NCBI GenBank assembly: GCA_951799425.1 | Contig: OX637409.1 | Span: 23,776,501-23,840,500, forward strand | Direction: 5' to 3' | DNA: 64,000 nucleotides | Source of the DNA: Ilex aquifolium | Taxonomy: Eukaryota; Streptophyta; Magnoliopsida; Aquifoliales; Aquifoliaceae | Part shown: in pieces, positions 13,261 to 38,259 of the stretch | Numbering within the stretch: the first letter of the stretch is position 1 | Layout of the letters: every line of letters starts with the position of its first letter | The notes under the pieces: generated by a model | Seen by the model: only the letters and a program-made list of their open reading frames with translations | Databases searched by the model: none | Told to the model about the DNA's origin: nothing | Program-made: the position numbers and the translations under genes

Positions 13261-13802
13261 AAAGGAATTCTGCTTTTTTGTTAATTTAGGGGGATGAAGA
13301 GCTTTATAAGCTAATACATGTTTGATATCATGGGACATCTTCTTCTTTTAAACATTTACTATTTTCAACTCCTTTTTGAACAATACTTAATCTAAAGTCG
13401 GAATATTAAAAGAATATATTAATCGATGTCTAAAAATGCATCGTGGGATGCCCAACACCTTTCATACACTCAATCAAAAAAAATTAGCATTTAAGGCTTA
13501 GTAAAACAAACCATTTTCAATTTTGAATTTAAAAGTCAATTCTAGGCTATCAGTGACTCATCACACCTTTTTATTTAGATTTTTTTTAACATTTATTCAT
13601 TGGCATAACCATTTTTCAAAATCTGCAAAATTGCCACATATTCATTTTTTTTTTCACACAAGAAACATGAAAATCTATTAATCATAAAAAAACCGTGAAA
13701 AAACATGAGAGAACAAGGAATCCTCATGAAATAAGACGAGGTACAATAAAATATAAACAAAAGCTATGAGCGAAAAAATCAAGCCTCAACAATTGGCATC
13801 TA

Positions 13803-15866: not shown

Positions 15867-15975
15867 CCGGATGGATTGAGAGAGAAGAGATGATCGGTGA
15901 GGCTTGAGAGTGACGAGAGAGACGAGCGGGAGACAGAGCGCGGGACTCAGAAAAATGAATTCGGTTTGGGTTTCG
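15867..15975 (-). promoter_or_regulatory. Candidate leader exon/promoter segment of locus B
   Basis: A purine/CT-rich segment (minus sense) ends CATCCGG followed by GTCAGT. It is conserved at 25490-25640 (donor GTGAGT) and at 33917-34070 (donor GTCAGT). Conservation of this block, including the splice-site-like end, suggests an untranslated first exon of B-type F-box genes. No clear TATA box was assigned. Confidence 0.4.
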
Positions 15976-17153
15976 GGTTTTTTGGAAGTGAGCTGCGAAT
16001 TTGAGGATTGGAAAAATGACACTTTATACCCTAAATTTTTTTTAAGTTTCTAATTTATACCCTTAAAGATTTAAATTTCTTATATTGAATGCTCATTTAA
16101 ATTAAAAAAAAATAGCAATGTGCTCCATTTTTAATAAAATAGAATACCAAATTTTCATGTAAATTGCTTAAAATTTAGAATAATTCAAATAATTGTGAAT
16201 AGAAATGCGATAATATAACACATATAACAAAAAATATTGTCAAAAAAGGAAACAAAAGGTTAGTTTCAAACCATATTACTACATTTTTTGTCTGATTGAA
16301 GATGCAATATGGGATTAAAATGACGGAGAATAGTTTGGTGGAACACTCAATTCAAATAGGTTTTGACATATTTTTTATTTCTAAAAACAAAAAATAGTTC
16401 CAAGATACAATCCAACAAGACCTTAATGTTTTAAGTTTTAACTTAAGATTTTTGAGATTTTAAAATGTGTAAGTGTCATTTCTCCAAGCATTGCCTAAAT
16501 TTAATGTCAGTTGAGACCTTTATTTATTTAAATTCCAGGGCTTTTCGCACTTTGAACCCTAATTTTTTTTTAAATCTTTTAATTTGCAAATTCAAAGATT
16601 AAATTTTTCATATTGTACTCACTCTCAATGTATCAAAAGTGTTGTAATGTGACACTTCTGTTAGCTTCTACTATTTTTTCTATCAAAAGTCAACCCATTG
16701 ACATTGACAGAAAAATTAACAAAAAACTTAGTTACTAATGAGTGAATATAAAAGTGGTGAATTTAGTAACTAATTAGGTGAATATAGATCGAGTGAACTT
16801 AATAATTTAAGATTAAAAGTTAAATGGGATGGGGAAGGATATTTAAGGGGTGGGACATTGGTATAGCCCCACCCGACAGTAATTGCCAAAGGTTTTTCCC
16901 TCTTTTTTTTGTGTTATTTTTTATTTCACTTGTCACACTTTGTTCACTTATCATTTTTTTGAATAAAGTCTATTATACGATACTAGAAAAATAAAAAATC
17001 CTTTAAGTCATATGAACTGAGGTAAAATATAACCTAACCTCATCATTTTACCGGGTTCAATCCGATTTAATGAACTCGGCCAAATTTCATGTTTGGTTAT
17101 GGATATGATAAGAGCAATGTTACATGGACTTCATAAATAATTGACTTCAATTT
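15976..17153. other. Intergenic, old inverted-repeat element remnants
   Basis: The 'tataccctaaatttt...aatttatacccttaaag' segment (16027-16070) and the related 16480-16600 segment resemble the termini of the palindromic element at 38260-39000. The segment at 16690-16880 resembles the 45200-48890 element ('gtgaacttagttattag', 'atagccccacc'). No gene seen. Confidence 0.45.
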
Positions 17154-17339
17154 CTAGCTCTCCTCTAATTCGAGGAGGAACTCAAATACGATGTCTAGAA
17201 TCGTTACCCGTCTATATCTCCATTCTCTTGATAAGATACTTGTCCTTGCAGCATCCCGCAATGGCAAACACTTGAGAATAATTCCTGTGATATTATCTGG
17301 TAAAGTATTGAAAACATCTGAACTTCTAAGCTCCATCAT
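17154..17339 (-). pseudogene. F-box fragment H (5' exon only)
   Basis: The ATG at 17339 (or 17336) starts M(M)ELRSSDVFNTLPDNITGI, an F-box closely similar to copy B. The frame stops after about 61 codons, where similarity to B ends, so no LRR or FBD region is present. The upstream sequence matches B's upstream sequence, interrupted at about 17356-17513 by a ~155-bp MITE-like insertion with imperfect inverted ends ('tatgcaccaaaac'/'ttttggtgcacaaat'). The Harbinger element at 17770 then splits the rest of the upstream segment. Confidence 0.85.
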
Positions 17340-18139
17340 TTCACAATTTTTATTGATGAGCAATACTATCTGCACAAAAAATATGCACCAAAACATTCAC
17401 CAAATCATTTGCAATCATTGGATCAGTAGATCCTATTAATGATCCAACGACTACAGTTGATTTAGTATAAATTTTGGTGCACAAATTTAATGCACATAGA
17501 ATTATTCTTTATTAATTATCCTGGGAATCAAAAGCAAGAAACCACATCATTACATGGCATAAACACAAAAGAAACAACATTTGGAAGAACAAAAATGGAC
17601 AACTCGGGTCATCATTATCATCCACTTCAACCAAGTATGCGGTTATGAATAAAATAAATCAACATTCTCTAAAACTTTCTCCTTGAGCAACTCATAGTTT
17701 TCAAGATAACCCCCCAACCCCCCTCCTAAGAAAAAAAAACAAAGCAATATTAGTTTCATTATTCACCTAGGTTATGATTGGTAACGTTTTTGTTTTTATG
17801 TTTATTTAAAAAAAAAAAAAACATAATCAATTTTTTCTTTTCTTTTTTTGGTTAAAAATTGAAACAAAAAACGTGTTTAGATGTAGTTGTTATTTTAAAA
17901 AATCAAAAAACTAAAACAGAAAACATGTTTGATAACCATTGTATTTTCTGTTAAATATTTTACCTTTATATTAATTCTTACTAAAACACAATCACATTAT
18001 TTATATCAATACATTCATCAACCCATAACACAGTGCACAATACATCAACCCAAAATAATAGAAGTTGTTAAATATTTAAAGTAACAATAGATCAACCCAT
18101 TATTAATAATCTACCAAATACCAGACTACACCATAATCA

Positions 18140-19435
18140 CTTTACTAAAATCCTAATTTGTGCTTGTGAACTAGTTCCTGCACCACCTCTACTATCATCA
18201 ATATCCTCTTTTCGTTCAAAGTCAACAAGCAACCAATCATGTGGAGAATGACTTCTGATGGAGTTATGGACGGTATAACAAACTGTGGGCAAATATTTCT
18301 GCGTGGTTATGGGATCAGGTGGCATTAGTTTGAGAATGGAAAAATGAATCTTCAAAACTCCAGTGCAACGCTCAATTATATTTCAAAGTGATGAGTTACG
18401 ATAATTGAATAACTCCTCTTTATTGGTTGGTTGTTAACCTCTCCCTCTATAATTACGTAAGTAATATTTCTCACCGCGATAAGGAGACAAAAAAGCTGAC
18501 ATGTTTGTAAAACCCAAATCCACAACATAAGATTTATTTGTGAAAATATATATCATTGTAAGACATAATATTGGATTTATACAAATTACTTATCTGAAAT
18601 CCAGGAATAAATTTACTTCCTAGCAACATTGAAAATTTGTTTGCGGGATTAGTGACACTATAAAAACTCTTGAGTCATGAGTTGTACCTTCCCACCTACT
18701 CAACATAAATGTAAATCGCATGTCAAATGAACATGCACACATTACATTGAGTTTGTACAGTCTATTTTCCACAGTATGACACTTGCTGATCTACTATAAC
18801 ATGTGTATCAACATAAGTATCACCAATTGCACTAACATAATTCTATAATGACAAACATATGCTGATAACATCAAAACCCGTTAACCGTCATATTATAGTT
18901 TATATATTGGTCGAAGATACAATAATACTTTTAATTACCTTAAAAAAATGGATAATATTTAGGATTGAATCTAATCCGAGGTTGAATGACATCAAAATTT
19001 GGGGATTGTATGATATCAATTCCACGCCTATAAACTCTCTTCAACACACACTTGAAGTATTTGGAAATTGTCTCACCCAAATGTTGAAACCTTTTAGCCA
19101 CTATGCGATTTTGCTCATTGTGAGCTATAGTTACAAAAAATATAACTACTTGCCCTTAAACAGTGAGATATCTAGAGTTTTGCAAATCTCTATTTTTTAA
19201 CTCTGCAAAACAACACAAACACAAGTGGATCCATTCTAAATTGGTCAAAACACTTATCTTCATGCCCATTAATTAATTCCAATACATAATCATGCTCCCT
19301 AAGTTGAGATGTTCTACACGGACATAGTCCTAACTTTTGACTAGAATAAGTATCTAGTGCTATTGCAATCATGACAATACTTATCTCATCATCACTATCA
19401 AATATCGTATCCAATTCCTCATCTAAATCCATTAG
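18140..19435 (-). pseudogene. Harbinger transposase (DDE_Tnp_4), decayed
   Basis: Pieces of the PIF/Harbinger DDE transposase are readable in order on the minus strand. They are an N-terminal helix-rich part (RTSQLREHDYVLELINGH, about 19300), NRMVAKRFQHLGETISKYF-like sequence at about 19100, an Asp-containing RWEGTTHDSRV block near 18700, SAFLSPYRGEKYYLRNYRGR near 18470, and the C-terminal ELFNYRNSSL..IIERCTGVLK with a conserved Glu, ending around HNSIR. Stops and frameshifts break it, so it cannot encode an active enzyme. Confidence 0.85.
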
Positions 19436-19639
19436 TGTCGAAATACCTATAGCACATAATAATTATAAGTATGCAAATACCAAATAAAACATGTACAACC
19501 AATAAACAAACATAAATCCCAACTTAGACATAAAACAAACACATGCAAACATCCATGACAGTCATAAAGAAACATGCATCCCAAAATACCAAGTTTAATA
19601 GAAATACATATCCTGATACGTAAAGAGAAAGCATAAAAA

Positions 19640-20633
19640 TCACAAGCACGTAATCCAATCCCTCTTCCTATGGTTCGGCATAGCCATGAATAGCTTCCTC
19701 CAAGTCATACCCTCACTAAATTTTGTTATGGCTTTTGCATAGCCATCTGCATCAATGTCGTCCAGATTATTCAAAGCAGCCACACACTCATTTACCAAAT
19801 CACCCTTATGGTTAGTAACCTCACTATCCCCATACGAAGATGTCACCACCATAGCGTTAGACATCTTGTACTCCAAATACTCATTTTTTTTCTTTGAAGT
19901 TTCCACAAAAACATTAAGGGCAGATGTAAGATTAACCATGATATTATCCTTCTCCCGACATTGACTACAGGTTGGAGTGGTAGACCTACTATGAGAACAG
20001 TTGCTTGGCCCTTTATCATTTTCATTGTCATCGCCTTTACGAACCTCGTTTATAGGATCAAATGTTGGATCTTTTTCTTCATTGCTGCGAGATGTATGTT
20101 GGGTTGAAGGATGAGCATGTTTACCAATTGCACTTGTCTTACCATATATTCTACCAAGTTTTTTATAATGAGGACAACCTTTTTTCTTGAATTGTCTAGC
20201 ATGCTTATTCACCTGACAGAAATAAAAACTAATCAATACTAAACCCTTATAAAAAATAGACATAACAATGATTACAAGTTTTAAGAAGAATTGACTACCT
20301 TGAACAAATTCTTCCAGACATCATCTGGTAAAGTAATTGTCTGTCTCTCTGGGTCCCAACCTACTCCTGTTGTTTCATTCAATAACTTCTTAAATGCATT
20401 GAACATTGTTCTCAAAGTATTGTATTTGTTTCGAATCTGCTCATGGCTGTAATTATACCCCTCTTTGCTCTAAGTTGCACGATGATTCTGTTCCACGCAT
20501 CCTTTTCAAATGTAGATGTGTCTTTATGTCGACCTGGTACTTCCAAATCCATCAATTCAATAAAAATGGCCTCATTTTTAGCCGTCCATGGCCCGCCAAC
20601 TATTTTATCCCCAACCTCAACAACATTTTCCAT
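19640..20633 (-). pseudogene. Harbinger Myb/SANT-like accessory protein
   Basis: The second gene of the PIF/Harbinger element, which in this family supplies DNA binding and helps the transposase. Exon 1 is 20633-20299 (MENVVEVGDKIVGGPWTAKN, then the Trp-rich Myb_DNA-bind_3 domain continuing to GVGWDPERQTITLPDDVWKN). A GT-AG intron spans 20298-20213. Exon 2 is 20212-19640 (VNKHARQFKKKGCPHYKKL, a Ser/Asn-rich linker, then the typical C-terminal helix ending RDWITCL). Exon 1 is 335 nt and needs a one-base correction near 20465, between ...QLRAKRG and GYNYSHEQI, so the gene is frameshifted. Confidence 0.85.
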
Positions 20634-20724
20634 CTACATACCAATTTCCAACAACTCCAAATATTCAAACATTCAAACTTATAACACCCTCTCAAATCCC
20701 AACTAGTTACATAAAGCATAAAAT

Positions 20725-20950
20725 AAAAAACAATAAAATAATTCATACTTCATACTTCATAATTCATAATTCACAATTGATACTTTATAATTCTCAAATC
20801 TCAATTCATAAATCATAATTCATAATTCTTGATTCATACTTCATAATTCTCAAATCCCAATTCATACTTCATAATTCATAATTCACAATCCACAATTCAT
20901 AATTCAATTCATAGTTCATATCAATTCATAGTTCATAATTCAATTTATAC
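20725..20950. repeat. AT-rich minisatellite ('ttcataattca')
   Basis: Tandem variants of 'tcataattcataattcaca' and 'attctcaaatcccaattcat' occupy about 220 bp upstream of the Myb-like gene inside the Harbinger element. They are followed by a short CA-rich run (20965-21000). Confidence 0.8.
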
Positions 20951-22019
20951 ACAAACAGATGCATACACACACACACATGCACACATACACACGTGCAAAC
21001 ACAGAGAGAGTGAGATGTTAAAATCAACAACGAAACAAAACAAAACAAAGATGAAGAAAAATCACTAGATCTGCAAAAATAAACTATAGATCTCCAAAAA
21101 TAAACCCTAGATTTGAAACAAAAATCCTATATCTGAAACAAAAATCCAAAGTGAAGAAGAAACCTTACTATAGAGCTTCGTCGGATTGCTTCGAGAACAG
21201 CTTTGTCGAAGATGGCAGAGAGAGACAAGAGACAACAATGACAGTGGAGAAAGGCGAGAGACAGACCGATTCAACTTTGTTGCTGCAAATGAGTTTTTAT
21301 ATGTAAGGGAAAAATGTTGTTTTTTGTTGTTAACAGGTTTGACTTGGAGATCTCATAAGAAGGAGGATGGGGTGTTTGCGTGTTTTTGTGTTTTGGATGT
21401 TTTTTAAAATAGTTTTTTTATATTTGCATTTTTTGTCCTTGTTTTCAAAACAGAGTACCAAAAAAAAAAACCGAAAACATTCACCAAACACATTTTTTTT
21501 CTTTCCAAAAACTGAAAACAAAAAAAAATAAAAAAAAATAAAAACACCCTGTTACCAAACGCACCCCTAATAATTGAGCTTCACTTTCTGCACTTAATAG
21601 TATTGGATACATATTATATGTATCACAAAATTTGTAAAATATTTTTAAACTTTTGGATAGGTTTGGGACATGCTGAAGTTTTATAACCAAACCTTTTGGA
21701 TACACGGTGATTTGCCAGCGTAAGATATATGTTTTTTTTTTCCTTGGGGCCATGGGAGAAAACAAAATAAGTGTTTTATTTAAAACAACAATTGGAAAAT
21801 TGAAGGTGGTTTTTCAATTGACAATTTGAAGGTAAGAAAAAATTACTTTAATGGAGTTGGCTTTGGAGATGTCCCTTTGAACAAAATTCCTTAAGACATT
21901 TAGTTATCAAGAGAAATTATTGTTTACTGGCCAATGGATGGAATGTTAACAGAATTAAAAATAGAAGTTTCTAATACCCATGAAAATTCACATCTCAAAA
22001 ATTGACGAGTTTTTTTGAA

Positions 22020-22860
22020 ATCTTTAGTTGGTGGTGTGTAACAGGGAGAGTTCGTTTTTGGGTGGATACCTAGTTGGAAGAGTTATCTTTTTTATATTTG
22101 TTTCCACACCTCTATCATTTATCTTGCTTTTCACAATGCATCCATTGCTCTTGTGCTTCGATTTTATAATCATCTGTACTTGGACTTCGAATTCCGTAGT
22201 TAAAAGATGATAGAGACACTAGGGTTTTGATGTCATTCCTTGATATTCTTAACAATTCTTCATTGACTCAAGAGTCAAGTGATAAAAGGTGAGTTTTCTA
22301 GCCTTTAGATGTTTTCTCTAGGAAATTCTTTCCTTTTTTTTTTGGATGAATTTTTTTGTCCTCTCTTTACCACTACTTTGATGATTTGGAAAGCCAAATT
22401 GCCTCTAAAAGTGTAAATTTTTGCAAGGGGCATTGCACATGGTAACTATGATATGCTTTATGGAAAAAAAAGAAGAAGACATAATACTTGTCTTTCCCAG
22501 TGGTGTTTGGTGTTAGAGATGATTATAAAAGCATTAATCATTTATTTTTATATTGCCCTACTATTTTTCCTCATGGCATAAATTGCTAGCTTGACATGTT
22601 TGAGTTCGGTAATTCCCGAGTCATCCACATCCTTGTTTGTTAAAGATTTGAAAGGACTTGGGCGGATTGATGTAGGCGTGATTCGCTGGGGTTATGAGTT
22701 GATTGTTATTGCTACTTTTTGGGTTAATAGGAAGGAAAGGAATGAAAGAATTTTTGAAGACCGAAGCAAATTGTTGAATAGATTCTAGGACCGTAGTCAT
22801 TTCAACGCATCATTCTGAGATTAAATTCCTCAGAAATTCAAAGGAATTCTACTTTTTTGC
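22020..22860 (+). pseudogene. LINE ORF2 C-terminal remnant, copy 2
   Basis: Same remnant as at 12400-13260. The readable pieces are FLGGYLVGRVIFFIF near 22055, WKAKLPLKVKVFA near 22390, a zinc-binding-like region with NHLFLYCP near 22540, and NRKERNERIFEDRSKLL at about 22725-22775, which is the diagnostic end of plant LINE zf-RVT regions. It is broken by stops. Confidence 0.75.
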
Positions 22861-24019
22861 TAATTTAGGGGGACAAGGAGTTTTATTGGCTGATACATGC
22901 TTGACATCATGGGACACATCTTCTTTCAAATATTTACTATTTTCAATTCCTGAACAATATTCAATTTAACGTCAGAATATTCAAAGAATATACTAATCGA
23001 TGTCTAAAAATGCATTGCGAGATGCCCAACGCCTTTCATACACTCGATCAAAAAATTTAGCATTTAAGGCTTAGTAAAACAACCATTTTAAATTCCGAGC
23101 TTAAAATTCAATTCCAAGCTATTAGTGTCTCTTCACACCCCTTTATTTGGATTTTTTTTACGTTTATTCATTGGCATAAACCATTTTCAAAATCAGCCCA
23201 ATTGCCACATATTCATATTTTTTTAACACAAGAAACACAAAAATCTATTGATCATCAAAAACCGTGAAAAAACATATAAGAGGAGAAGGAATCCTCGTGA
23301 AATAAGACGAGGAACAATAAAATAGAAAGCAAAGCTATGAGCAAAAAAATCAAACCTAAATAATCGGCACATACTTGAGGCCAATGATCCTTAATTAAAT
23401 AGGATGATATTCCTCCAAAGCTTTTAAATGCGGTAACCCAAAGGAGAGTCATGGAATGATTTTGTCCCATAAATCTAACTAAGAGGTGTCTAGTTCTTCA
23501 AAAATTCGACCATCTCTTTCCAACCACATTACTAAAACACTACTAAAACTGCACATCTCCATAAGATCTTAACTTTATTACTTGGACCAAAGCCAGCAAA
23601 ATGAATCTCCAACATCAAAGTACAATCTTTAAGACACCCAAGGAATTCCAAACATTAACATATCTATATCATTCAAGCATGTATCACGTATGCTCATTCA
23701 TGCTTCATTACCAAGAAATGTTAAGGTTCTGAACTATCTAAGTTCAGGAATGACGAAGGGTTGAATCTTGATAATATCTTCTAAACCCAATGCATCTTGC
23801 TATTATCATTAGTACAAGCCCAAGAATAACACTAATGGAGCAAAAACACTTAGACAATGGGTTAATTTCTTTCATAATGTTCTTTGTTAATCACTCAATA
23901 AAAAACTCAAAATTATTGATGGAAAATTTCTTATAAAAAAAAAAATTATTGATGGAAAATAAAAAATAACTTTAAACCTCAATCCAAAAGTTCTAAGGTT
24001 GAAAGAATTATTTATTGCT

Positions 24020-25080
24020 ACTTGTGACTTGGCATACTAGACAAGTAAAAATTACAGTAATGGTCCCAAGACGGGGTAGATTTACGCATTGTTCAACATT
24101 ATGATTACTGTACTTAACCAGCCAACTACCCAAAATCAAGCAATTTGATCTAGATCTTTTTTATTTCTCAAGCAGATTGCCCACCCAATAAATGCAAATT
24201 ATCATATCACGGTGAGACTACCAACCTAGTGATCAAGGTAGATGAATAATAAACCGAGAAAATGTTAATATTCTGTATCGAACGACCGAATGATATGAAA
24301 TGCAATCATTTAGTCTCAATATCCCCCACCTAATTCAATAAGATAAAGTAACATATTTAAAAGAAACAATTAAGAGGAATTACTTGCAGGCATATGAGTA
24401 ATGGCCATTGTTTGGTGAGTGGTGGAAGTATCAGTTTTGCAACCATGAGATTCTGGATTTGAATACGAGCACAACTACTTTGTGCAAACACTACCAAAAT
24501 ATGGGTTTATACCTAATGAACACCTCAAAGATGTCCAATTAATAGGACCTTGTTTGTCTTTTAGGCTTATGAGTGTGTCACTAATGCCATTTCCCATTCA
24601 AGTTCACACACACAAATACGAAATTTCAGAAGAAAAATTTTAATGATCAACAAATGGAAAGGTAAGAAAAACAGCAGGCATACAGTGTTGATATAAAAAC
24701 TGAGAAATTATGAGAAATTAAAATAAGTGATTTGAAAACGAGATGGAACTTTGAGACATCTTTTCCCCGAAGGCGCACTTCGAAAGTTACTAGAATGAAT
24801 GTGACATTTGGAAACAGGAGGATCTTAATTTAGTCATTTACTACTTGTGCTGAGTCAGGTAGGGATTTTTCAACAGGGGTTGGACATATTTAAATGTCTA
24901 TCCGGACTAAACTGAAGTTGTAAAACCCTCAACTGAGCTCAACCCAAATCCTTTAACCCGAGCACTACTCATGTTTAGATTTTTGGGCATGGGTTGAACA
25001 TGAGTAACCCATCTGAGGTTCAGTAGTCAGGTTCAATCTTTGGGTTGAAATTCGGATTTCTTGGGAGAATCACACTGCAC
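24020..25080. other. Segment present in both tandem units but not in locus B
   Basis: Relative to the B-linked copy, which reads 'ctacttgagagtgcaaattg' near 15420, about 1.1 kb is extra here and at 32330-33450. It contains a SINE-like stretch with 'gattctggatttgaatacg' (24450-24480). No protein-coding similarity was recognised, and the open frames at the matching position in unit 2 are not conserved genes. Confidence 0.4.
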
Positions 25081-25489
25081 ATGTAAAGGTTTTAAAATTC
25101 TCAATTTGTATCTTCAAAGTGAGAAAATTAATCTTTGAGTGTAAATTGAAAATGTAAAACCTTCCAGCGTACAAAGTGTGATTCGCCCTAAAATGAGGTT
25201 ACAACCCCATAGTTTACTAAACTTACAGATCTTGCTCAAACCTTTAACTTGATATGCAAAATCTTTCAGATAATTAGTACGGCATCTTATTGAATAGTAA
25301 TAATCAGCATTAACCCAGAATGAGATTATGTTGGATATGAAGCCTAAACCTTAAAATGTAATAGCAGAGCACGGCATAGAAGAACAACTAACACGTAAAA
25401 TCATCAAAAGAGGGCTAGACAATCCAGAAATCAACAATCCATTAAACCCAGTCACGGCACACACAAATATAGAGGATGGAGACTCACCC

Positions 25490-25640
25490 GGATGGATTGC
25501 GAGAGCACAGATGATCGGTGAGGCTTGAGAGTGACGAGAGAGACGAGCGGGAGACAAAGCGCGGGACTGAGAAAAATGGATTCGGCTTGGGTTTCGGGTT
25601 TGGTTTGGAACTGAGCTGCGAATTTGAGGATTAAGATACC
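25490..25640 (-). promoter_or_regulatory. Leader-exon-like block, unit 1
   Basis: Counterpart of 15867-15975. It ends (minus sense) CATCCGG|GTGAGT, a good splice donor. The next F-box coding sequence downstream on the minus strand is fragment H, now separated by the Harbinger element, so this block has probably lost its gene. Confidence 0.4.
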
Positions 25641-25649
25641 AAACCAAGT

Positions 25650-26340
25650 TTTATATTTTAATTATTTGTGCTCGACCATATGAGTCCATATTTATTTTTC
25701 ACTTTTGTCATGTGTATGTTTATTTAAATTAAATATTTTTATATATTTTTTTATTTTGTTTAATATTAATTTAAATCTATCTTTACTCTTAGTATTATTC
25801 AGAGAAATTTTATCATTTTTTTCTAACTAGCATCTTTATTCATCACCGTTGAATATGATCAAATCATATTAATTTATTATCTCTCAACTTATGTTTAATT
25901 AGATTTACTCATACTATTTTTTTATAATACGGTCATTTTTAGATTTTTCATACATTTACCTTAATATTCTCATTTTCGCTATATTCATTTGATCATATGC
26001 CTAAAGGAATTCATCCATAATTAAGATGAATAAGTATGAACTTAAGTTTGATCTTTAGTGTAATCCCACCATGATGGAAATTTTTTTATTTTTTTCTACA
26101 TAAGACTTAATTATAATCATAACCCCATCATACATGTCATTTATCACTATACCTATTTGTCACCCTTTTTTCTATCAATGACCCTTCATATTATATTTCT
26201 AGCCACTTTATCATACACCTTTTTAAGATTTGTAAATATTATATGGAGATTTTTATTGATCAGTGTCCTTGATAAATATATAACCTCAACAGTTGATCTA
26301 CTAGGCATAAACCCAAACTATTTTTTTTGACATTGTAATC
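25650..26340 (-). pseudogene. RTE-type LINE reverse transcriptase debris, unit 1
   Basis: On the minus strand a decayed reverse-transcriptase segment can be read near 26330-26150: FGFMPSRSTVE, corresponding to the family motif 'GFmPGRSTmEaI', then a 'LKKVYDKV' like segment corresponding to 'lEKAYDkVPR'. It then runs into AT-rich sequence shared with unit 2. Many stops are present. Unit 2 retains a different part of the element (34080-34650). Confidence 0.65.
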
Positions 26341-26512
26341 TCAACTATTACTCATAGGCAACCAAAGATTTTCAATTGAGAGCTCAATTTATCCAACCAG
26401 AAAATTGCATTTAAACAAAATATGTCATACCAACTCAGTTATGTACAATGACTTTCTTGCAACAAAGTACAGGTCTTTTATATTTGGCACTGGATGTCAC
26501 TACACTTGCTAC

Positions 26513-27960
26513 TTACTCATCTGAATCCACATATCTGACTTGTGCTTTTGGTGATGCTCGAGGAAATCGTAACAACTCTTTCAATGTCCTGGAACCACCA
26601 CCATCAGAAACCTCTTCTACAACAATTACCAATTCTTCAAGTACGGTTGAGCATGCTAACAGAACCTTAACAAACTCCATTTCAGGCTTGACACCAGAGA
26701 AAAGTCCAATCTCCACTTTTTTAAGCCGATTAAAAGAACAATCTGAAAAGTCTTGCGCTTGCAAATATTCTGCAACGGATTGCATATTGTTTGAGGGGTT
26801 GGTGCATGCCTAAGAAAGAAACAAAAAATGGAATCATATCAATGTGAACTTTCCAAAAATACATAAATTACAGAAAAAAAAAATTGAATTGAGCAACAAC
26901 TCACTACAATTTCAAGTTCACGTAAGTTGGGGGAGCTTCTAATCAAGCAAAGAGCACATGCGACTGCTTCAATCTTCTCGAAACACATAAGAGACAGATA
27001 AAGAAATGTGAGGTGTTCCAACATAATAGGAAGTCTCTCTAACACATGACCTGCAGCCAAAAACTGCAAACAATTGCACCAAAAGAAAGAAGTAAGAAAC
27101 ATGCCTTCCAGAGCATGTCCACTATATATCAAAAAATAAACCTTCCTTACCTCCAAAACGTTTTCATCGAGATTCAGTTTCTCAATGGCAGGTACACCAC
27201 TAAAAAACTTGATCAAATTAGAGATTTTCCCTTGGTTCTGGTGTTCAACATCCAAACTATTGGAAATCAAAGTCACTGAAATTTCAGCAAGAAGAGGGGT
27301 ACATTTGAAGCAAATGGATTTTAAAATACCACAAAAGCGAAAAAATCTGAGTTTGCGTGCATCGATGTCAAGACAATCAAACTCGGTGCAGCATTCACAC
27401 CTCAACCATTCAAGCTGAGGGAAATTTGAGATCAAATTCCCAAACATTTCAGGTACAAGGGCAACAGATGAAAGATCAAGGTGGACGAGCCTACTAAATC
27501 CTTTGAACGTAGGTGGAGGTTTGAACACACAATTATGAAGATTCAAATGGCTTAGCTGCAGGAAGGTAAACAGGTAAGAAGGCAATCTATAGGGATTGCC
27601 ATTGGAAATGCGCAAGGTAAATTCCTGGATATTTTTCTTTGACAGGAAAAGGATCCAATGATGGATATCAATACAGCTTCTGAAATCAGGGACGGAAAGT
27701 TTAAACTTAACTATAGGCCCCTGATGAAGTAACAGAACTTGGTAAACAATTGAAGACAATTTGCGGTTGCCCCGTAATTCTGGGGGGAGCTGGTGATCGA
27801 ATATGATGTCTGGAATTGTTACCCATTTATGCTTCCACACTGTAGATAAGATACTAGTCCTTGCAGCATCCCTCAATGGCAAGTGCTTTAGAATATTTTC
27901 TATAATATGACTTGGTAACTTACTGATAATATCCGAGTCAGAACTCCTCACACTCTTCAT
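26513..27960 (-). CDS. F-box/FBD/LRR-repeat protein, intact copy C
   Basis: Three exons, 27960-27151, 27063-26905 and 26809-26513, joined by GT-AG introns of 87 and 95 bp, give 421 residues, the usual size of the At1g13570-type family. The F-box spans about residues 8-52 (IISKLPSHIIENILKHLPLR, then RTSILSTVWKHKWVTIPDIIFD). Leu-rich repeats occupy about residues 105-300 (QLSHLNLHNCVFKP, RLVHLDLSSVALVPEMF, SSPNLRELEIV). The C-terminal FBD segment contains FSGVKPEMEFVKVLLACS and ends YVDSDE. Family knowledge: F-box proteins bind SKP1 and present targets to an SCF ubiquitin ligase; the target is unknown. Exons have no stops or frameshifts. The acceptor of the upstream UTR intron (TTTCCAG|GACAGTCCC) is present at 27984/27983. 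The ancestral leader exon is missing because of the tandem-duplication junction at 29703, so expression may depend on another promoter. Confidence 0.9.
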
Positions 27961-27983
27961 TCAACAATGATTTAGGGACTGTC

Positions 27984-29703
27984 CTGGAAATAAAACATCA
28001 TGGCAGGCAGTTAGATTATATTAGAAACCTACATGATCTATTTTTGTAATGCTATCGCATAAAAAGAAAAGTGACACTACATAGAAGAAAAAGTTAAGTC
28101 AAGTCACTACTCTTTCCAGTTCAACCAATTCTGCAATTATGAATAGAATCAAGCCGAATCGACTAATTTCAAACCAACATTTCAAAAGTCTTCGTTCACC
28201 TAATGAAAATGATAGAAGACGTCTTTCTCATAAATAAAATCATAGTTGTCGAGACAATACCCTCTTCCCCCCTGCCCCCACCCAAAAAAAGGAAGACAAC
28301 GCTATCCCAATATCATTCTTCAACAAATTGAATTATTCAGTTTCACTTTCTTCAATTATTATATGGCCACTACTGCATTGAATGTAGCAGCTCTAATGTA
28401 AAATTTCCACCAACTTTTACAGTTTTATTTACTTCACGAATAGGAGCGATGAAGGGATGAATCTCAATATCCTCTAGACTTGAGGCGTGTTATTATTATC
28501 ATTATTATTATTGTTGCTATTATTGTTGTTGTCAGTATCAGTACTATATCATCATCATCACTATCATAATGATTTGTTTTCTGAGCAGAACACTTAATGC
28601 CCAATACCGACAAATACGTATTTCATATGATTGTCGTTAGTTAGACATAATACTCAAAACAGTCATAGAAATCTGCAAATTGCTTTAAACCGCAGTCCAC
28701 AAATACTGAAGTTGTGATGATATCTTACTCCTATTTGACTTAATCATGCTTCTATAGGGGACTAGATAATTAGGGTATTGATCCAAATGATGAGTTAGAT
28801 CTACTCATTGCTTCGGTATTATTGTTGCTTCAGTTGGTTAATCAGTCAATTAACAGGAATGAATTAATTTGACCTGTTTTTCCTTAAGTACAATGCCCCC
28901 ATTCCCAAGGACAAAACAAATTATGATATCAAAATTCGTTGGAAAGATAAATGGGTTTTGAGTGTGAACCCATCATGCAAGGGTGAGGTTACAGGTCCAA
29001 TGACGAAGTTAGATAAGAGTAGAAAGTCCTTATTCAATCTGGTCCCTGTTAGTCAATGGTGCTGGGGACAATGGATTGGGTATCTACCCAAAAATCTGAA
29101 ATAACATGAAGTGCTTGCCTTCACAATTGAACCCAAAACCTCACTCTTATTAACCAAACACTTTGATCACTGCCCCTATAGTAGGAGAAAATTACCATGA
29201 CATCACTGTCACATGGTATCACTATCTAATTAGAAGCCAACAAATGAGCAAGTGGATCTCACAAAATTTAATAATCACCCATCTAGAATAACTACCCCAT
29301 GTAAAAACGTTAAGTTCACTTTATACATTGGGTGGTTTTTAGTTGGATGATGATACTACGAGACCGTGATGATGTAGTATTACCGTTATATTGAATATTT
29401 TCTCCCATGTTGGATACATAATATCAGAGAACATTCGATTTCTGAATTAATCGGCCACATGTATGAAAATACAATCATTTAGTTTCTATATTTTCAATAC
29501 AATAAGCTATATTAGAAAACAAACGAAAAAAGACCAATTGTGTGGAACCCTTTGCAGTATATGAGCCTGTGATTGAATCTATTTCTCATTCATGTTCAAT
29601 AAATACAATATGCATCATGCTCAACAAAAGGAAAAGAATGAAGAATAACAGGCGTATACAACTGAATATAACAACTAAACTTGTTCTTTGAGTGATATAT
29701 AAT
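27984..29703 (-). other. UTR intron of locus C, truncated at the duplication junction
   Basis: This is intron-like sequence shared with D (36263-38001) and E. It contains a trinucleotide-type microsatellite (28490-28572, att/ttg/atc) and a SINE-like stretch on the minus strand around 29170-29040 ('gaggttttgggttcaattgt' B-box-like). It stops about 20 bp before the donor that D retains. Confidence 0.6.
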
Positions 29704-30339
29704 AGGGTGTTAGCGTGTTTTTGTTTTTTGAAAATAGTTTTTTTATGTTTGCATTTTTTGTCCTTGTTTTCAAAACAGAGTACCAAAAAAAAAAAATTCA
29801 CCAAGCACGTTTTTTTTCTTTCCAAAAACTGAAAACAAAAAAAAAAAAAAATAATAAAATAAAAACAACTTGTTACCAAACGCACCCCTAATAATTCAGC
29901 TTCACTTTCTCCACTTAATAGTATTGGATACATATTATATTTATCACAAATTTTGTAAAATATTTTTAAACTTTTGGATAGGTTTGGGACATGCTGAAGT
30001 TTTATAACCAAAAGTTTGGGATACACAGTGATTTGCCAGTGTTAGATATATGTTTTTTTTTCTTGGAGCCATGGGAGAAAACAAAATAATTGTTTTATTT
30101 AAAACAACAATTGGAGAATTGAAGGTGGTTTTTCAATTGACAATTTGAAGGTAAGAAAAATTACTTAAATGGAGTTGGCTTTGGAGGTATCCCTTTGAAC
30201 GAAATTCCTTATGACATTTAGTTATCAAGAGTAATTATTGTTTACAGACCAATGGATGGAATGCTAATAGAATTAAAAATAGAAGTTTCTAATACCCATG
30301 AAAATTCACATCTCAAAAATTGATGAGTTTTTCTCAAAT

Positions 30340-31150
30340 CTTTAGTTTGTGGTGTGTAACGGGGAGAGTTCGTTTTTGGGTGGATACCTAGTTGGAAGAG
30401 TTATCTTTTTTATATTTGTTTCCACACCTCTATCATTTATCTTGCTTTTCACAATGCATCCATAGCTCTTGTGCTTCGGTTTTATAATCATTCGTACTTG
30501 GACTTCGAACTCCGTAGTAAAAAGATGATAGAGACACTAGGGATTTGATGCCATTCCTTGATATTCTTAACAATTCTTCATTGACTCAAGAGTCAAGTAA
30601 TACTAGCCTTTAGATGTTTTCTCTAGGAAATTCTTCCCTTTTTTTTTTTGGATGAATTTTTTTGTCCTCCCTTTACCTCTACTTCGATGATTTGGAAAGC
30701 CAAATTGCCAGTAAAAGTGTAAATTTTTGCAAAGGGCATTGCACATGGTAACTATGACATGCTTTATGAAGAAAAAAAAAAGACATAATACTTTTCCCGG
30801 TGGTGTGTGGTGTTAGAGATGATTATGAAAGCATTAATCATTTATTTTTATATTGCCCTACTATTTTTCCTCGTGGCATAAATTGCTAGCTTGACAGGTT
30901 TGAGTTCGGCAATTCCCGCCTCATCCACATCCTTGTTTGTTAAAGATTTGAAAGGACTTGGGCAGATTGATGTAGGCGTGATTCGCTAGGGTTATGAGAT
31001 GATTGCTATTGCTACTTTTGGGTTAATTGGAAGGAAAAAAATGAAAGAATTTTTGAAGACCGAAGCAAGTTGTTGAATAGATTTTAGGACCGTAGTCATT
31101 TCATCGCATCATTCTGAGATTAAATTCCTAAGAATTTCAAAGGAATTCTA
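30340..31150 (+). pseudogene. LINE ORF2 C-terminal remnant, copy 3
   Basis: Unit-2 counterpart of 22020-22860, with the same VGNG/GGYLVG, WKAKLP and RNERIF-like landmarks (for example 'attggaaggaaaaaaatgaaagaatttttgaag' near 31025). Additional stops are present. Confidence 0.7.
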
Positions 31151-33916
31151 TTTTTTTGCTAATTTAGGGGGGCACAGAGTTTTATAGGCTGATACATGCT
31201 TGACATCATGGGACACATCTTCTTTCAAATATTTATTATTTTCAATTCCTGAACAATATTCAATTTAATGTCGGAATATTCAAAGAATATACTAATCGAT
31301 GTCTAAAAATGCATTGCGAGATGCCCAACACCTTTCATACACTCAATCAAAAAATTTAGCATTTAAGGCTTAGTAAAACAAACCATTCCAAATTCCGAAC
31401 TAAAAATTCAATTCTAGGCTATTAGTGACTCTTCACACCCTTTTATTTGGATTTTTTTTACGTTTATTCATTGGCATAAACCATTTTCAAAATCAGCCCA
31501 ATTGCCACATATTCATATTTTTTTAACACAAGAAACATGAAAATCTATTGATCATCAAAAACCGTGAAAAAACATATAAGAGGATAAGGAATCCTCGTGA
31601 AATAAGACGAGGAACAATAAAATAGAAAGAAAAGCTATGAGCAAAAAAATCAAGCCTAAAAAATCGGCACATACTTGAGGTCAATGATCCTTAATTAAAT
31701 AGGATGATATTCCTCCAAAGCTTTTAAATGCAATAACCCAAAGAAGAGTCATGGAATGATTTTGTCCAATAAATCTTACTAAGAGGTGTCTAGTCCTTCA
31801 AAAATTCGACCATCTCTTTCCAACCACATTACTGAAACACTACTAAAACTGCACATCTCCATAAGATCTTAGCTTTATTACTTGGACCAAAGCCAGAAAA
31901 ATGAATCTCCAATATCAGAGTACAATCTTTATGACACCCAAGGAATTCCAAACATTCCCATATCTATATCATTCAAGCATGTATCACGTATGCTCATTCA
32001 TGCTTCATTACCAACAAGTGTTAAGGTTCTGAACTATCTAAATTTTATCTAAGTTGAGGAATGACGAAGGGTTGAATCTCGATAATATCTTCTAAACCCA
32101 ATGCATCTCGTTATTATCATTAGTACAAGCCCAAGAATAACACTAATGGAGCAAAAACACTCAAAAAATGGGTTAATTTCTATCATAATGTTCTTCGTTA
32201 ATCACTCAATAAAAACTCAAAATTATTGATGGAAAATTTCTTATCAAAAAAATTTATTGATGGAAAATTCAAATCACTTCAAACCTCAATCCAAAAGTAC
32301 TAACGTTGAAAGAATTATTTATTGCTACTTGTGACTTGGCATACTAGACAAATAAAAATTATAGTAATGGTCCAAAGACGGGGTAGATTTACGCATTGTT
32401 CAACATTATGTTTACTGTACTTAACCAGCCAACTACCCAAAATCAAGCAATTTGATCTAGATGTTTTTTATTTCTCAAGCAGATTGCCCACCCAATAAAT
32501 GCAAATTATCATATCACAGTGAGACTACCAACTTAATGATCAAGGTAGATGAAGAATAAATCGAGAAAATGTTAATATTCTGAATCGAAAGACCGAATGA
32601 GATGAAATGCAATCATTTAGTCTCAATATCCCCCACCTAATTCAATAAGACAAAGCAACATATTTTAAAGAAACAATTAAGAGGAATTACTTGCAGGCAT
32701 ATGGGTAATGGCCATTGTTTGGTGAGTGGTGGAAGTATCAGTTTTGCAACCATGAGATTCTGGATTTGAATACGAGCACAACTACTTTGTGCAAACAATA
32801 CCAAAATATGGGTTTATACCTAATGTACACCTCAAAGATGTCCAATTAATAGGACCTTGTTTGTCTTTTAGGCTTATGAGTGTGTCACTAATGCCATTTC
32901 CCATTCAAGTTCACACACAAATACGAAATTTCAGAAGAAAAATTTTAATGATCAACAAATGGAAAGGTAAGAAAAACAGCAGGCAAACAGTGTTGATATA
33001 ACAACTAAGAAATTATGAGAAATTAAAATAAGTGATTTGAAAACCAGATGGAACTTTGAGACATTTTTTCCCCGAAGGCGCACTTCGAAAGTTACCAGAA
33101 TGAATGTGACATTCGGAAACAGGAGGATCTCAATTTGGTCATTTACTACTTGTGCTGAGTCAGGTAGGGATAGGTATCCTATTTTCCAACAGGGGTTGGA
33201 CAGATTTAAATGTCTATCCGAACTAAACTGAAGTTGTAAAACCCTCAACCGAACTCAACCCAAATCCTTCAACCCGAGTACTACTCATGTTTAGATTTTT
33301 GGGCACGGGTTGAACATGATGAGTAACCCGTCTGAGGTTCAGCAGTCAGGTTCAATCTTTGGGTTGAAATTCAGATTTCTTGGGAGAATCACACTTTGCA
33401 CATGTAAAGGTTTTAAAATTCTCAATTTGTATCTTCAAAGTGAGAAAATTAATCTTTGAGTATAAATTGAAATTTTAAAACCTTCCAGCGTACAAAGTGT
33501 GATTCGCCCTAAAATGAGGTTACAACCCCATTGTTTACAAAACTTACAGATCTGGCTCAAACCTTTAACTTGATATGCAAAATCTTTCAGATAATTAGTA
33601 TGGCATCTTATTGAATAGTAATAATCAACATTAACCCAGAATGAGATTATGTTGGATATGAAGCCTAAACCTTAAAATGTAATAGCAGAGCACGGCATGG
33701 AAGAACAAATAACACGTAAAATCATCAAAAGAGGGCTAGACAATCCAGAAATCAACAATCCATTAAATTTGAACTTAAAATCAGTAAAGAACACCCACAG
33801 CCCATATACACACACACACACAAAACACTCACAAGCATGCAGAAACACACCAACCAGCGCAAAGCACGCCCACTCATATGAAACCCAGTCACGGCACACA
33901 CAAATAGAGAGGATTG

Positions 33917-34070
33917 AGACTGACCCGGATGGATTGCGAGAGCAGAGATGATCGGTGAAGCTTGAGAGTGACGAGCGGGAGACAAAGCGCGGGACTGAGA
34001 AAAATGGATTCGGCTTGGGTTTCGGGTTTGGTTTGGAACTGAGCTGCGAATTTGAGGATTAAGATACCAA
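33917..34070 (-). promoter_or_regulatory. Leader-exon-like block upstream of gene C, unit 2
   Basis: Third copy of the block at 15867-15975, ending (minus sense) CATCCGG|GTCAGT at about 33927/33926. Because of the tandem duplication this is now the nearest leader-exon candidate upstream of C on the same strand, about 6 kb away. Splicing from it to the acceptor at 27984/27983 is an inference, not seen. Confidence 0.35.
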
Positions 34071-34079
34071 ACCAAGTTT

Positions 34080-34650
34080 TATATTTCAATTATTTGTGCT
34101 CGACCATATGAGTCCGTATTTATTATTCACTTTTGTCATGCGTATGTTTATTTAAATTAAATATTTTATATATATATTTTTTATTTTGTTTAATATTAAT
34201 TTAAATCTACCTTTACTCTTAGTATTATTCGGAGAAATTTTATCGTTTTTTCCTAACTAGTGTATTTATCGACCTCCATTGAATATGGCCAAATCATATT
34301 AATCTATTGTCTCTCAATTTATTCTTAATTGGAGTTACTCTTAATATTTTTCCTAATACAATCATTTTTAGCTTTTTCACACATTTACCTTAATATTATC
34401 ATTTTCGCTATACTCATTTGGTCATTATATTGTTTCCTAGTTACCTAACAATTCGTCCCACAGCATTGTTATCCTTATGACTGTACAATAAAACTCGTCT
34501 TCTAATTTTATTTGTATTCTTCTATCACATAATATGTCATACGCTTTCCAAGTCAACCATCATTGATTCTATGAGTTACATTGTCTCTAATCTCTCCATC
34601 ATTTTTAATGTTCAATCTTAAATATATAAATCGTTTACTCGTTGGTATTT
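34080..34650 (-). pseudogene. RTE-type LINE 3' debris, unit 2
   Basis: Minus-strand remnant with a segment readable as FRYL-like and GEIRDNVTHRIN (about 34610-34560), the position where RTE LINEs read 'FrYLGS.i...GeiddDv.hRI'. It is followed by AT-rich sequence common to unit 1. Stops are frequent. Unit 1 keeps the preceding reverse-transcriptase part instead. Confidence 0.6.
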
Positions 34651-34806
34651 ATTGATTTTCAATCTCAAATGAGAACTCAATTTATCCAACCAGAAAATTG
34701 CATTTAAACAAAATATGGCATACTCAGTTATGTACAAAGACTTTCTTGCAACAAAGTACAGGTCTTTTATCTTTGGCACTGGGTGTGTCACTACACTTGC
34801 TACTTA

Positions 34807-36239
34807 CTAATCTGAACCAAAATATCTGACTTGTGCTTTTGGTGATGCTCGAGGAAATCGTAACAACTCTTTCAATATCCTGGAATCACCATCAGAAACC
34901 CCTTTTACAAGAAGTACCAATTCTTCAAGTACGGTTGAGCATGCTAACAGAACCTTAACAAACTCCATTTCAGGCTTGAAACCAGAGAAAAAGAAGAACT
35001 GCACTTTTTCAAGCCGATTAAAAGAACAATCTGAAAAGTCTTGCGCTTGCAAATATTCTGTAACGGATTGCATATTATTTGAGGGGTTGGTGTATGCCTA
35101 GAAAAGAAACAAAAATGGAATCATATAAATCTGAACTTTCCAAACATACATAAATCACGGAAAAATAGAAATGAATTGAGCAACAACTCACATAAATTAT
35201 AAGTTTACGTAAGTTGGGTGAGCTTCTAATCAAGCAAAGAGCACATGCGACCGCTTCAATCTTCCCGAAACACATGCAGATCAAGAATATTGAGGTGTTC
35301 CAACATAGTAGGAAGTCTCTCTAACACATGACCTGTACCCAAGAACTGAAAACAATTGCGCCAAAAGAAAGAAGTAAGAAACATGCCTTTCAGAGCATGT
35401 CCACTATGTATGTAAACATAAACCTTCCTTACCTCCAAAAAACATCGAGAATCAGTTTCTGAATGGCAGGTAAACCACTAAAAAACTTGATCAAATTAGA
35501 GATTTTCCCTTGGTTATGGTGTTCAACATACAAACGACTGGAATTCAAAGTCACCGAAACTTCGGCAAGAAGAGGGGTACATTTGAAGCAAATGGATTTT
35601 AGAATACCATAAAAGCAAAAAAATCTGAGTTTGTGTGCATCGATGTCAAGACAATCAAATCCAGTGCAGTTTTCACACCTCAACCATTCAAGCTGAGGGA
35701 ATTTTGAGATCAAATTCCCAAACATTTCAGGTACAAGGACAACAAGTGAAAGATCAAGGCTAACGAGCCTATTAAATCCTTTGAACATAGGTGGAGGTTT
35801 GAACACACAATTACGAAGATTCAAATGGCTTAGCTGCAGGAAGGTAAACAGGTAAGAAGGCAATCTATAGCGATCGCCATTGGAAATGCGCAAGGTAAAT
35901 TCCTGGATATTTTTCTTTGACAGGAAAAAGGATCCAATGATGGATATCAATACAGCTTCTGAAATCAGGGACGGAAAGTTCGAACTTAACTATAGGCCCC
36001 TGATGAAGTAACAGAACTTGGTAAACAATTGTCTTCAAATTCTGGTTACCCCGTAATTCTGGGGGGAGCTGATGATCGAATATGATGTCTGGAATTGTTA
36101 CCCATTTATGCTTCCACACTGTAGATAAGATACTAGTCCTTGCAGCATCCCTCAATGGCAAGCGCTTTAGAATATTTTCTATAATATAACTTGGTAACTT
36201 ACTGATAATATCCGAGTCAGAACTCCTCACCCTCTTCAT
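34807..36239 (-). pseudogene. F-box/FBD/LRR pseudogene D
   Basis: Tandem-duplicate twin of C. Exons are 36239-35433, 35345-35192 and 35097-34807, with all splice sites kept. The F-box (IISKLPSYIIENILKRLPLR) is intact. Three lesions follow: a one-base insertion in an A-run near 35924, a four-base deletion at the end of exon 1 near 35440 and a two-base deletion in exon 2 near 35275. The exon-length arithmetic (807 = 810+1-4; 154 = 156-2, with exon 2 compared to E) agrees. The FBD exon is open and ends YFGSD. The first frameshift truncates the protein soon after the F-box. Confidence 0.88.
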
Positions 36240-36262
36240 TCAACAATGATTTAGGGACTGTC

Positions 36263-38001
36263 CTGGAAATAAAATATCATGGCAGGCAGTTAGATTATAT
36301 TAGAAACCTACATGATCTATTTTTGTAATGCTATGGCATAAAAAGAAAAGTGACACTACATAGAAGAAAAAGTTAAGTCACTACTCTTTCCAGTTCAACC
36401 AATTCTGCAATTATGAATAGAATCAAGCCGAATCGATTAATTTCAAACCAACATTTCAAAAGTCTTCGTTCACCTAATGAAAATGATAGAAGACGTCTTT
36501 CTCATAAATAAAATCATAGTTGTCGAGACAATACCCTCTTCCCCCCTACCCCCACCCAAAAAAAGGAAGATGACGCTATCCCAATATCATTCTTCAACAA
36601 ATTGAATTATTTAGTTTCCCTTTCTTCAATTATTATATGGCCACTACTGCATTGAACGTAGCAGCTGTAATGTAAAATTTCCACCAACTTTTACAGTTTT
36701 ATTTACTTCACGAATAGGAGCGATGAAGGGATGAATCACAATATCCTCTAGACTTAAGGCGTGTTATTATTATCATTATTATTATTGTTGCTATTATTGT
36801 TGTTGTCAGTATCAGTACTATATCATCATCATCACTATCATCATAATTTGTTTTCTGAGCAGAACACTTAATGCCCAATACCGACAAATACATATTTCAT
36901 ATGATTATCGTTAGTTAGACATAATACTCAAAACAGTCATAGAAATCTGCAAATTGCTTTAAACCGCAGTCCACCAATACTGAAGTTGTGATGATAACTT
37001 ACTCCTATTTGACTTAATCATGCTTCTATAGGGGACTAGATAATTAGGGTATTGATCCAAACGATGAGTTAGATCTACTCATTGATTCGGTATTATTGTT
37101 GCTTCATTTGGTTAACCAGTCAAGTAACAGGAATGAATTAATTTGACCTGTTTTTCCTTAAGTACAATGCCCCCATTCCCAAGGACAAAACAAATTATGA
37201 TATCAAAATTCGTTGGAAAGATAAATGGGTTTTGAGTGTGAACCCATCATGCAAGGGAGAGGTTACAGGTCCAATGATGAAGCTAGATAAGAGTAGAAAG
37301 TCCTTATTCAATCTGGTTCCTGTTAGTCAATGGTGCTGGGGACAATGGATTGGGTATCTACCCAAAAATCTGAAATAACATGAAGTGCTTGCCTTCACAA
37401 TCGAACCCAAAACCTCACTCTTATTAACCAAACCCTTTGATCACTGCCCCTATAGTAGGAGAAAATTACCATGTCATCACTGTCACGTAGTATCACTATC
37501 TAATTAGAAGCCAACAAATGAGCAAGTGGATCTTACAAATTTAATAATCACCCATCTAGAATAACTACCCCGTATAAAAACGTTAAGTTCACTTTATCCA
37601 TTGGGTGGTTTTTAGTTGGATGATGATACCACGGGATCGTGATGACGTAGGATTACCGTTACATTGAATATTTTCTCCTATGTTAGATACATGATATCAG
37701 AGAACATTTGATTTCTGAATTAATCGACCACGTGTATGAAAATACAATCATTTAGTTTCTATATTTTCAATACAATAAGCTATATTACAAAAACAAACGA
37801 AAAAAGACCAATTGTGTGGAATCCTTTGCAGTATATGAGCATGTGAGTGAATCTATTTCTCATTCAAGTGCAATAAATACAATATGCATCATGATCAACA
37901 AAAGGAAAAGAATGAAGAATAACAGGCGTATACAAGTGAATATAAAACTAAACTTGTTCTTTGAGTGATATATAATGAGAATGGTAGATTCTGAGACTTA
38001 C
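36263..38001 (-). other. 5' UTR intron of locus D
   Basis: A 1739-bp GT-AG intron runs from the donor CATTCTG|GTAAGT (38002/38001) to the acceptor TTTCCAG|GACAG (36263/36262). It contains a trinucleotide microsatellite (36765-36845) and a SINE-like stretch (around 37450-37310, minus sense). Confidence 0.65.
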
Positions 38002-38200
38002 CAGAATGAATCTGAAAATTGAAAACAAAAGGGGCTAAAAATCAGATGGTGACCAATATCAATGGTGAGAGATTAGGGCTCTCTTCTTCTCGATTTGACC
38101 TTCCGCTACTTCGGTCGGGTCAAGTAACTTGGGCTTCCCAATTGTCTCTGTAGCTGTCAAAGAGAGACTTGATTCCGTGCTCTCTCTCTCTCTCTCTTCT
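38002..38200 (-). promoter_or_regulatory. 5' UTR exon and proximal promoter of locus D
   Basis: The leader exon ends CATTCTG|GTAAGT. The same exon and donor are conserved at E (43954-44110) and G (52631-52730), each with a CT-rich upstream edge, so it is a real ancestral feature. A (CT)n run (38180-38197) and a (TA)n run (38213-38239) lie just upstream in the presumed core promoter. The exact transcription start is unknown. Confidence 0.55.
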
Positions 38201-38239: not shown

Positions 38240-38259
38240 TTTAAACCTGAAAAAAAATT

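Follow-up and report, generated by a model that had tools for sequence, protein, structure and literature searches.

Can a tandem duplication that cuts a gene off from its promoter also supply it with another? We asked this of gene C, an F-box gene in a 64-kb stretch of plant-type DNA on C19 of Ilex aquifolium (GenBank assembly GCA_951799425.1, contig OX637409.1, positions 23,776,501 to 23,840,500), hereafter the window, which holds a minus-strand cluster of F-box/LRR/FBD genes and gene fragments. An earlier note had proposed that duplication deprived C of its ancestral leader exon and promoter and left it behind the leader of a different F-box gene. Duplication units and gene collinearity were defined by BLAST self-alignment of the window, and genome searches covered the 800-Mb assembly with its 103 contigs. 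Judged from the sequence, the structure of the duplication and of the fusion it produced is near certain, and we put the probability that C is transcribed on C19 from the imported leader, of the type called A' here, at about even (0.5).

The duplication and its joint

Gene C lies in one duplication unit and its relative, gene D, in the other. A' is a truncated gene of the same cluster, described in the next section. UTR stands for untranslated region.

21369..29703, unstranded: duplication unit 1, with part of the A' intron, an orphan A' leader, gene C and part of a D-type intron (self-alignment).
29704..37976, unstranded: duplication unit 2, with part of the A' intron, the A'-type leader that today precedes C, gene D and part of a D-type intron (self-alignment).
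29703..29704, unstranded: unit 1/unit 2 junction, the joint of a hybrid intron (ends of the self-alignment; parental versus joint sequences; identical joint on C17).
27151..27983, minus strand: gene C exon 2, 23 nt of 5'UTR and coding sequence from the ATG at 27960 (read from the sequence).
26905..27063, minus strand: gene C coding exon (read from the sequence).
26513..26809, minus strand: gene C last coding exon, with the stop (read from the sequence).
34804..36262, minus strand: gene D coding region, its ends approximate (homology with C), with frameshifts at 35929, 35442 and 35275 (alignment with C).
38002..38190, minus strand: D-type leader exon and repeat-rich 5' region, kept by D and lost by C (donor scan, alignment).

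Units 1 and 2 are direct tandem copies: 21367-25446 and 29702-33767 are 93.6% identical and 26372-29703 and 34665-37976 are 94.2% identical (BLAST). Gene C retains an open frame of 421 aa over three coding exons (27960-27151, 27063-26905 and 26809-26513), and its protein matches the F-box (PF00646, E 2.6e-7, 30.7 bits, cut-off 20.5), LRR (PF24758, E 8.4e-13) and FBD (PF08387, 22.8 bits, cut-off 22) domains, so that it is intact, as had been claimed. Relative to C, gene D carries changes of +1, -4 and -5 nt, which are the three frameshifts reported earlier, plus one in-frame change of -3.

The D-type leader donor, CATTCTG/GTAAGT (the slash marks the exon end), has three exact matches in the window; they belong to D (37996-38008), E (43948-43960) and G (52625-52637), the same three genes that the earlier note had named. 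The scan found none beside C. When up to two mismatches were allowed there were five matches versus 2.2 expected by chance, and the two additional ones sit in the copies of the A' intron (24785-24797 and 33090-33102). Homology between C and D ends at 29703/37976, which is 25 bp into the intron that follows the D donor (D exon end 38002). This bears out the loss of the ancestral leader exon and promoter from C, and the junction falls where it had been placed; the donor is indeed close to it, at a measured distance of 25 bp and not the approximately 20 bp given before. At the joint the parental sequences have only 2 to 3 bp in common (AT, possibly ATG).

Tandem repeats are prone to misassembly, and an assembly error at 29703 had been named as a possible refutation. 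However, C17:28546485-28554179 aligns in one piece with 26293-34065 across the junction (93.9%, 154 gap positions), and the letters at the joint are identical on C19 and C17. On C17 there then follows a D-like copy with a D-type leader (28562153-28565674, aligning with 34665-38184). A 9-bp deletion in the leader is common to unit 2 of C19 and of C17 and is not found in unit 1, in gene B or in unit 1 of C17. The shared joint and the shared deletion indicate that the fusion predates the separation of the C19 and C17 clusters and is not an assembly error. Moreover, substitutions separate the two units at 4.6% of sites across the A' intron and leader and at 3.3% across the D-type intron. That the junction is a misassembly, or that a single chromosome was rearranged only very recently, is therefore extremely improbable; the C17 copy already refutes it, unless the same error was made in both places of the assembly.

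Matches to C17 extend over approximately 23400-41060 of the window. A second part, 39111-57032, is matched by C1 31478663-31496567 in inverted orientation and in collinear pieces of approximately 89 to 97% identity, so that each of these two parts has its duplicate on a different chromosome. Within the latter part, 51228-52415 is a long near-palindrome (72.7% match to its own reverse complement).

The segment upstream of gene C

The following features were needed to identify what now lies upstream of C.

10181..16009, minus strand: gene B, the reference for A'-type structure, with a coding region carrying at least one frameshift, a 4.2-kb 5'UTR intron and a leader exon that ends at 15867 (alignment).
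17128..17769, minus strand: truncated gene A', the first approximately 230 bp of the coding exon and the adjoining intron end (85.6% to B 11402-11637; 80.9% to B 11715-11957).
17770..21566, minus strand: PIF/Harbinger-like transposon in the A' 5'UTR intron, its ends good to one base (filled versus empty site in B, 11954-11957; CTA flanks; end repeats).
25488..25632, minus strand: unit-1 copy of the A'-type leader exon, an orphan with just truncated A' downstream (donor match 25479-25498, alignment).
29704..29887, unstranded: right-end fragment of the Harbinger-like transposon, carried into unit 2 (alignment).
33925..34060, minus strand: A'-type leader exon now upstream of C, with a TATA-like ATATAAAA at 34084-34077, no upstream ATG and a 5' end placed near 34050 by inference (alignment, donor match).
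27984..33924, minus strand: putative 5'UTR intron of C, a hybrid of 5,941 bp provided that the leader is in use, with an A'-type 5' part, a transposon fragment and a D-type 3' part (GT/AG sites read, splicing predicted).

In gene B, the ATG is at 11619, the coding exon starts at 11641, and the leader donor reads CCGG/GTCAGT. The B intron plus leader (11954-16009) is collinear in blocks with 21566-25632 and with 29887-34060. This collinearity identifies the left part of unit 1 as a 5' half that belonged to a truncated sister gene, namely A', whose coding remnant (17128-17357) is parted from the rest by the 3.8-kb Harbinger-like element. By alignment, the unit-1 leader copy belongs to truncated A', a point that the earlier note had left open, and the sequence upstream of C (29888-34060) is most of the A' 5'UTR intron together with its leader exon and TATA region. 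The different F-box-type leader noted before at 33917-34070, on the same strand as C, is thus confirmed with its donor intact, and the alignment with B shows more than a leader block.

The A'-type donor, AATCCATCCGG/GTCAGT at 33916-33935, is common to B (15858-15877) and to unit 1 (25479-25498, with GTGAGT); these are three matches in the window versus 0.01 expected, and the donor is kept in B, unit 1, unit 2 and C17. When the B leader was compared with the two unit copies, 8 of 140 and 8 of 132 sites differed, whereas the aligned blocks of the intron diverged by 13.8% and 12.3% (Fisher p = 0.005 and 0.03). The lower divergence of the leader suggests that it behaved as a constrained exon. Gene B has extra sequence from 16010, the exact point at which its likeness to the unit copies ends. 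The stretch 16010-16486 resembles a miniature inverted-repeat transposable element (MITE; GGAAAAATGACACTT ... AAGTGTCATTTCTCC, by eye) and begins exactly at the 5' end of the B leader, near the position matching a hAT-like insertion on C17.

On this sequence reading the fusion is intron to intron, in that the A' 5' half of unit 2 runs into the intron of C itself, 1.7 kb of which, D-type, still adjoins the gene. Because the joined pieces are both introns with matching ends, the A'-type leader can splice onto the C exon, and the putative leader-C transcript has no ATG ahead of 27960. We found a direct tandem duplication with a breakpoint between promoter and coding sequence, and, upstream, a new segment that supplies the 5' part of a different gene, oriented like C and with a usable donor, as a promoter exchange demands. 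The anatomical case goes beyond that of the earlier note, because two introns meet at the joint and the foreign segment really is a neighbouring gene's 5' half. Of its proposal that C is a promoter-swapped gene, the loss of leader and promoter by duplication stands, as does the presence of a foreign leader, its donor intact, upstream of C on the strand of that gene; use of that leader is the part to which we give even odds.

We propose the following sequence of events. A direct tandem duplication of approximately 8.3 kb would have had both breakpoints within 5'UTR introns of neighbouring F-box/LRR/FBD genes, the left one in the Harbinger-like element of the A' intron and the right one in the intron of the C/D ancestor, 25 bp beyond its donor. 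D, the copy that kept the ancestral promoter, would then have decayed, and C, cut from that promoter, would have been set behind a copy of the A' leader exon and TATA region. Transcription may start at approximately 34050, with the leader to 33925 spliced onto 27983, and would yield a normal F-box protein from a message with a foreign 5'UTR.

The left breakpoint lies 198 bp inside the right end of the Harbinger-like element. This element (17770-21566) is flanked by CTA on both sides (CCTA is possible), and its terminal repeats agree at 12 of 16 letters by eye. It has two Myb_DNA-bind_3 matches above the cut-off (E 5.5e-10 and 8.7e-5). Its longer frame, 19640-20263, gave no domain match above the cut-off, and DDE_Tnp_4 was matched weakly in one of five element fragments (E 0.0036, 17.4 bits, below the cut-off of 24.8), with no match in the other four. 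We had considered a breakpoint exactly at a MITE end, as 21369 resembled a terminal repeat. However, among the 40 of 749 candidates that were scored, 10 of the 39 matches other than the locus itself begin to the left of 21369, which places the break inside a longer element. Unequal crossing-over mediated by the element was also rejected, because no element is present in D at 37976 and so few letters are shared at the joint.

A further start for C would be available if one of its inherited or imported pieces held a cryptic promoter, be it the transposon fragment, what remains of the D-type intron or a relic leader in the imported intron.

33090..33126, minus strand: decayed end of a D-type leader inside the A' intron, its donor now GTAACT (alignment with E and D; adjoining intron matches E).

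The relic reads CATTCTGGTAACT at 33090-33102, a short match that alone could be chance; yet E and D align with approximately 35 bp of the leader end, and the intron next to it (32876-33008) matches E 43771-43908. Taken together, these alignments suggest that the A'/B lineage changed its leader before. The relic (CATTCTG/GTAACT) and the 1.7 kb of D-type intron beside C both speak for such a start. However, the relic donor is weakened and is altered further in unit 1 and C17 (CTA/GTAACT), and its leader is recognizable over only those 35 bp or so. The D-type piece, 27984-29703, was checked for promoters by homology. We regard expression of C from any of these starts as unlikely.

Whether gene C is in use

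If C is expressed, its frame should have been kept, and the D-type-leader copies provide the comparison. The fused gene is open in both of its copies, C and the C17 copy (C17-C, 410 aa). Among relatives on C19, C17 and C1, four D-type-leader copies were compared with C for frame, and all four are broken: D; the C17 copy of D (C17-D), with frameshifts of +4 and -5, the -5 deletion being common to D on C19 and C17; E, which is frameshifted and lacks the last exon; and the C1 relative of E, which has a 191-bp insertion in the first coding exon. G has the D-type leader, and its gene is reduced to fragments. C17-C differs from C by indels of 12, 3, 9 and 3 nt and by one of 10 nt in the last codons. 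Noncoding sequence between the same two copies has 22 indels in 6,432 sites, of which 3 are multiples of three, whereas the 3 or 4 internal coding indels, depending on alignment, are all multiples of three (3/3 versus 3/22, chance 0.0025). At the noncoding rate approximately 3.7 coding frameshifts were expected, and upstream of the last 5 codons there is none, an outcome with probability 0.024 for the coding sequence and 0.09 when just the first coding exon is considered.

Several observations weigh against use of C from its new leader, and they favor instead a copy that lost its promoter at birth, has drifted unexpressed with its frame kept open by chance or conversion, and carries the foreign leader as a passenger. 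The 10-nt deletion in the last codons of C17-C, if counted, raises the probability of at most one frameshift to approximately 0.11, so the indel evidence is modest. Polarized replacement:silent counts, made on the first coding exon of five sequences, were 8:3 for C and 9:3 for C17-C, as under neutrality, and we found no purifying selection on C in replacement and silent counts. The first coding exon had 38 changes between C and C17-C versus 33.2 expected at the noncoding rate, so its rate of change is not below that of the intron. Premature stops are equally rare in the broken pair (one in D, none in C17-D); since broken copies share it, we dropped the absence of stops as a sign of function in C.

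Pairwise tests covered ten pairs of copies, and we draw no conclusion from them. C/C17-C gave 67:11 over the whole coding sequence, an excess of replacements (p = 0.007, the lowest of the ten pairs), and 33:5 in the first coding exon, again towards replacement (p = 0.047). The other pairs below 0.05, C/C17-D (0.047) and C17-C/D (0.027), each include a broken copy. Positive selection on C was therefore not retained as an explanation, because pairs with a broken copy lean alike and the polarized counts show none.

Gene conversion, of D with E and of C17-C with C17-D, could also keep frames open without selection. Divergence between C and C17-C is 10 to 11% in the two later coding exons, higher than in the 5'UTR intron, and 8% in the intron that separates those exons, a pattern suggestive of conversion and not of selection. 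From approximately 27800 to 26900 in C coordinates, sites at which D equals E dominate five of six windows of 150 columns, with D-E identity of 95 to 97%, while sites at which C equals D dominate most windows of the intron and of the initial 165 bp of coding sequence. The D/E tract corresponds to approximately 35180-36070 and 41150-42040 of the window; most of its flanks are approximately 80 to 94% identical, and one flank window reaches 96%.

On C17, an element of approximately 650 bp, with hAT-like ends and the 8-bp target copy ATTAAGAT, splits the TATA sequence from the leader, and a further 4.4 kb of extra sequence lies upstream. The C17 fused gene may therefore need another start, and the case for use of the promoter rests on C19. 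Drift would also fit the family, in which lineage-specific genes are often expressed at low levels and under relaxed selection (PMC3030570, in the portion available). What such a copy would not lead one to expect is that both C and C17-C lack frameshifts before the last codons and keep their internal indels in frame, while D-type copies carry frameshifts or an insertion. Weighing these points, we consider an unexpressed, drifting C quite possible, though short of an even chance.

A possibly portable leader, and precedents for the fusion

The leader search of the genome found 12 places: 3 in the window, 2 on C17 and 7 inside a transposon. None of the 12 is a spliced retrocopy that would prove splicing. 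The transposon is a hAT element of approximately 4.6 kb (C19:23715961 region) with dimerization and RNase-H domains and 8-bp target copies at three loci; further matches lie on C2 and C11. It holds a captured piece of approximately 0.7 kb from the A'-type leader, donor and intron, the leader part being 98.6% identical to the C17 unit-1 copy. The captured leader lies 5' of the transposase frame on the same strand. Among the 40 of 1586 candidates that were scored, it occurs in at least 7 places with 93 to 100% identity, and matches on C3, C4 and C7 cover the hAT terminal part only and stop at the capture boundary. The A'-type leader, donor and intron start might be a portable expression module that replaced an older D-type leader in the A'/B lineage, was joined to C by duplication and was captured independently by hAT, with C alive thanks to the exchange and the ancestral-leader copies dead in four of four cases. 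We hold this broader idea to be doubtful.

The nearest precedent is cucumber CsACS1G at the F locus, as far as the available part of the report goes: a tandem duplication gives a second gene copy whose upstream region comes from a neighbouring gene and is held to alter expression (PMC7072070). However, CsACS1G keeps its own proximal promoter (to -410) with the distal part exchanged, whereas C exchanged the whole promoter and leader exon through introns. The cucumber event is also recent, variable among lines and linked to a trait (PMC7072070), whereas the C fusion is old, lies on two chromosomes and is read from DNA alone. In Drosophila yakuba, tandem duplications make chimeric genes and shuffle UTRs, with regulatory novelty expected (PMC5460883, in the portion available). 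As at C, a break inside a gene fuses the 5' portion of one gene with the 3' portion of a second. Those chimeras are young, polymorphic and backed by RNA sequencing (PMC5460883), whereas the C fusion is old, is known from DNA only, lies between paralogues and leaves the protein unchanged.

Lineage-specific plant F-box genes and pseudogenes have been described as subject to genomic drift, with tandem birth, frequent death by frameshift and relaxed selection (PMC3030570), and the C/D cluster resembles them in these three respects. Promoter exchange by intron-to-intron fusion is a feature of C not described for drifting plant F-box genes in the available portion of that report (PMC3030570). A literature search on F-box tandem duplication with promoter, chimeric, intron or transposable element, judged by titles and the openings of abstracts, found no such exchange.

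The class of event is already known, and what this locus adds is an example that can be tested, in a gene family with fast turnover. It offers a clean natural case in which breakpoints in 5'UTR introns part a coding sequence from its promoter and leave the protein untouched. Because the same fusion is present on two chromosomes, each with ancestral-leader controls, a single RNA experiment could show whether promoter exchange decided which duplicate survived.

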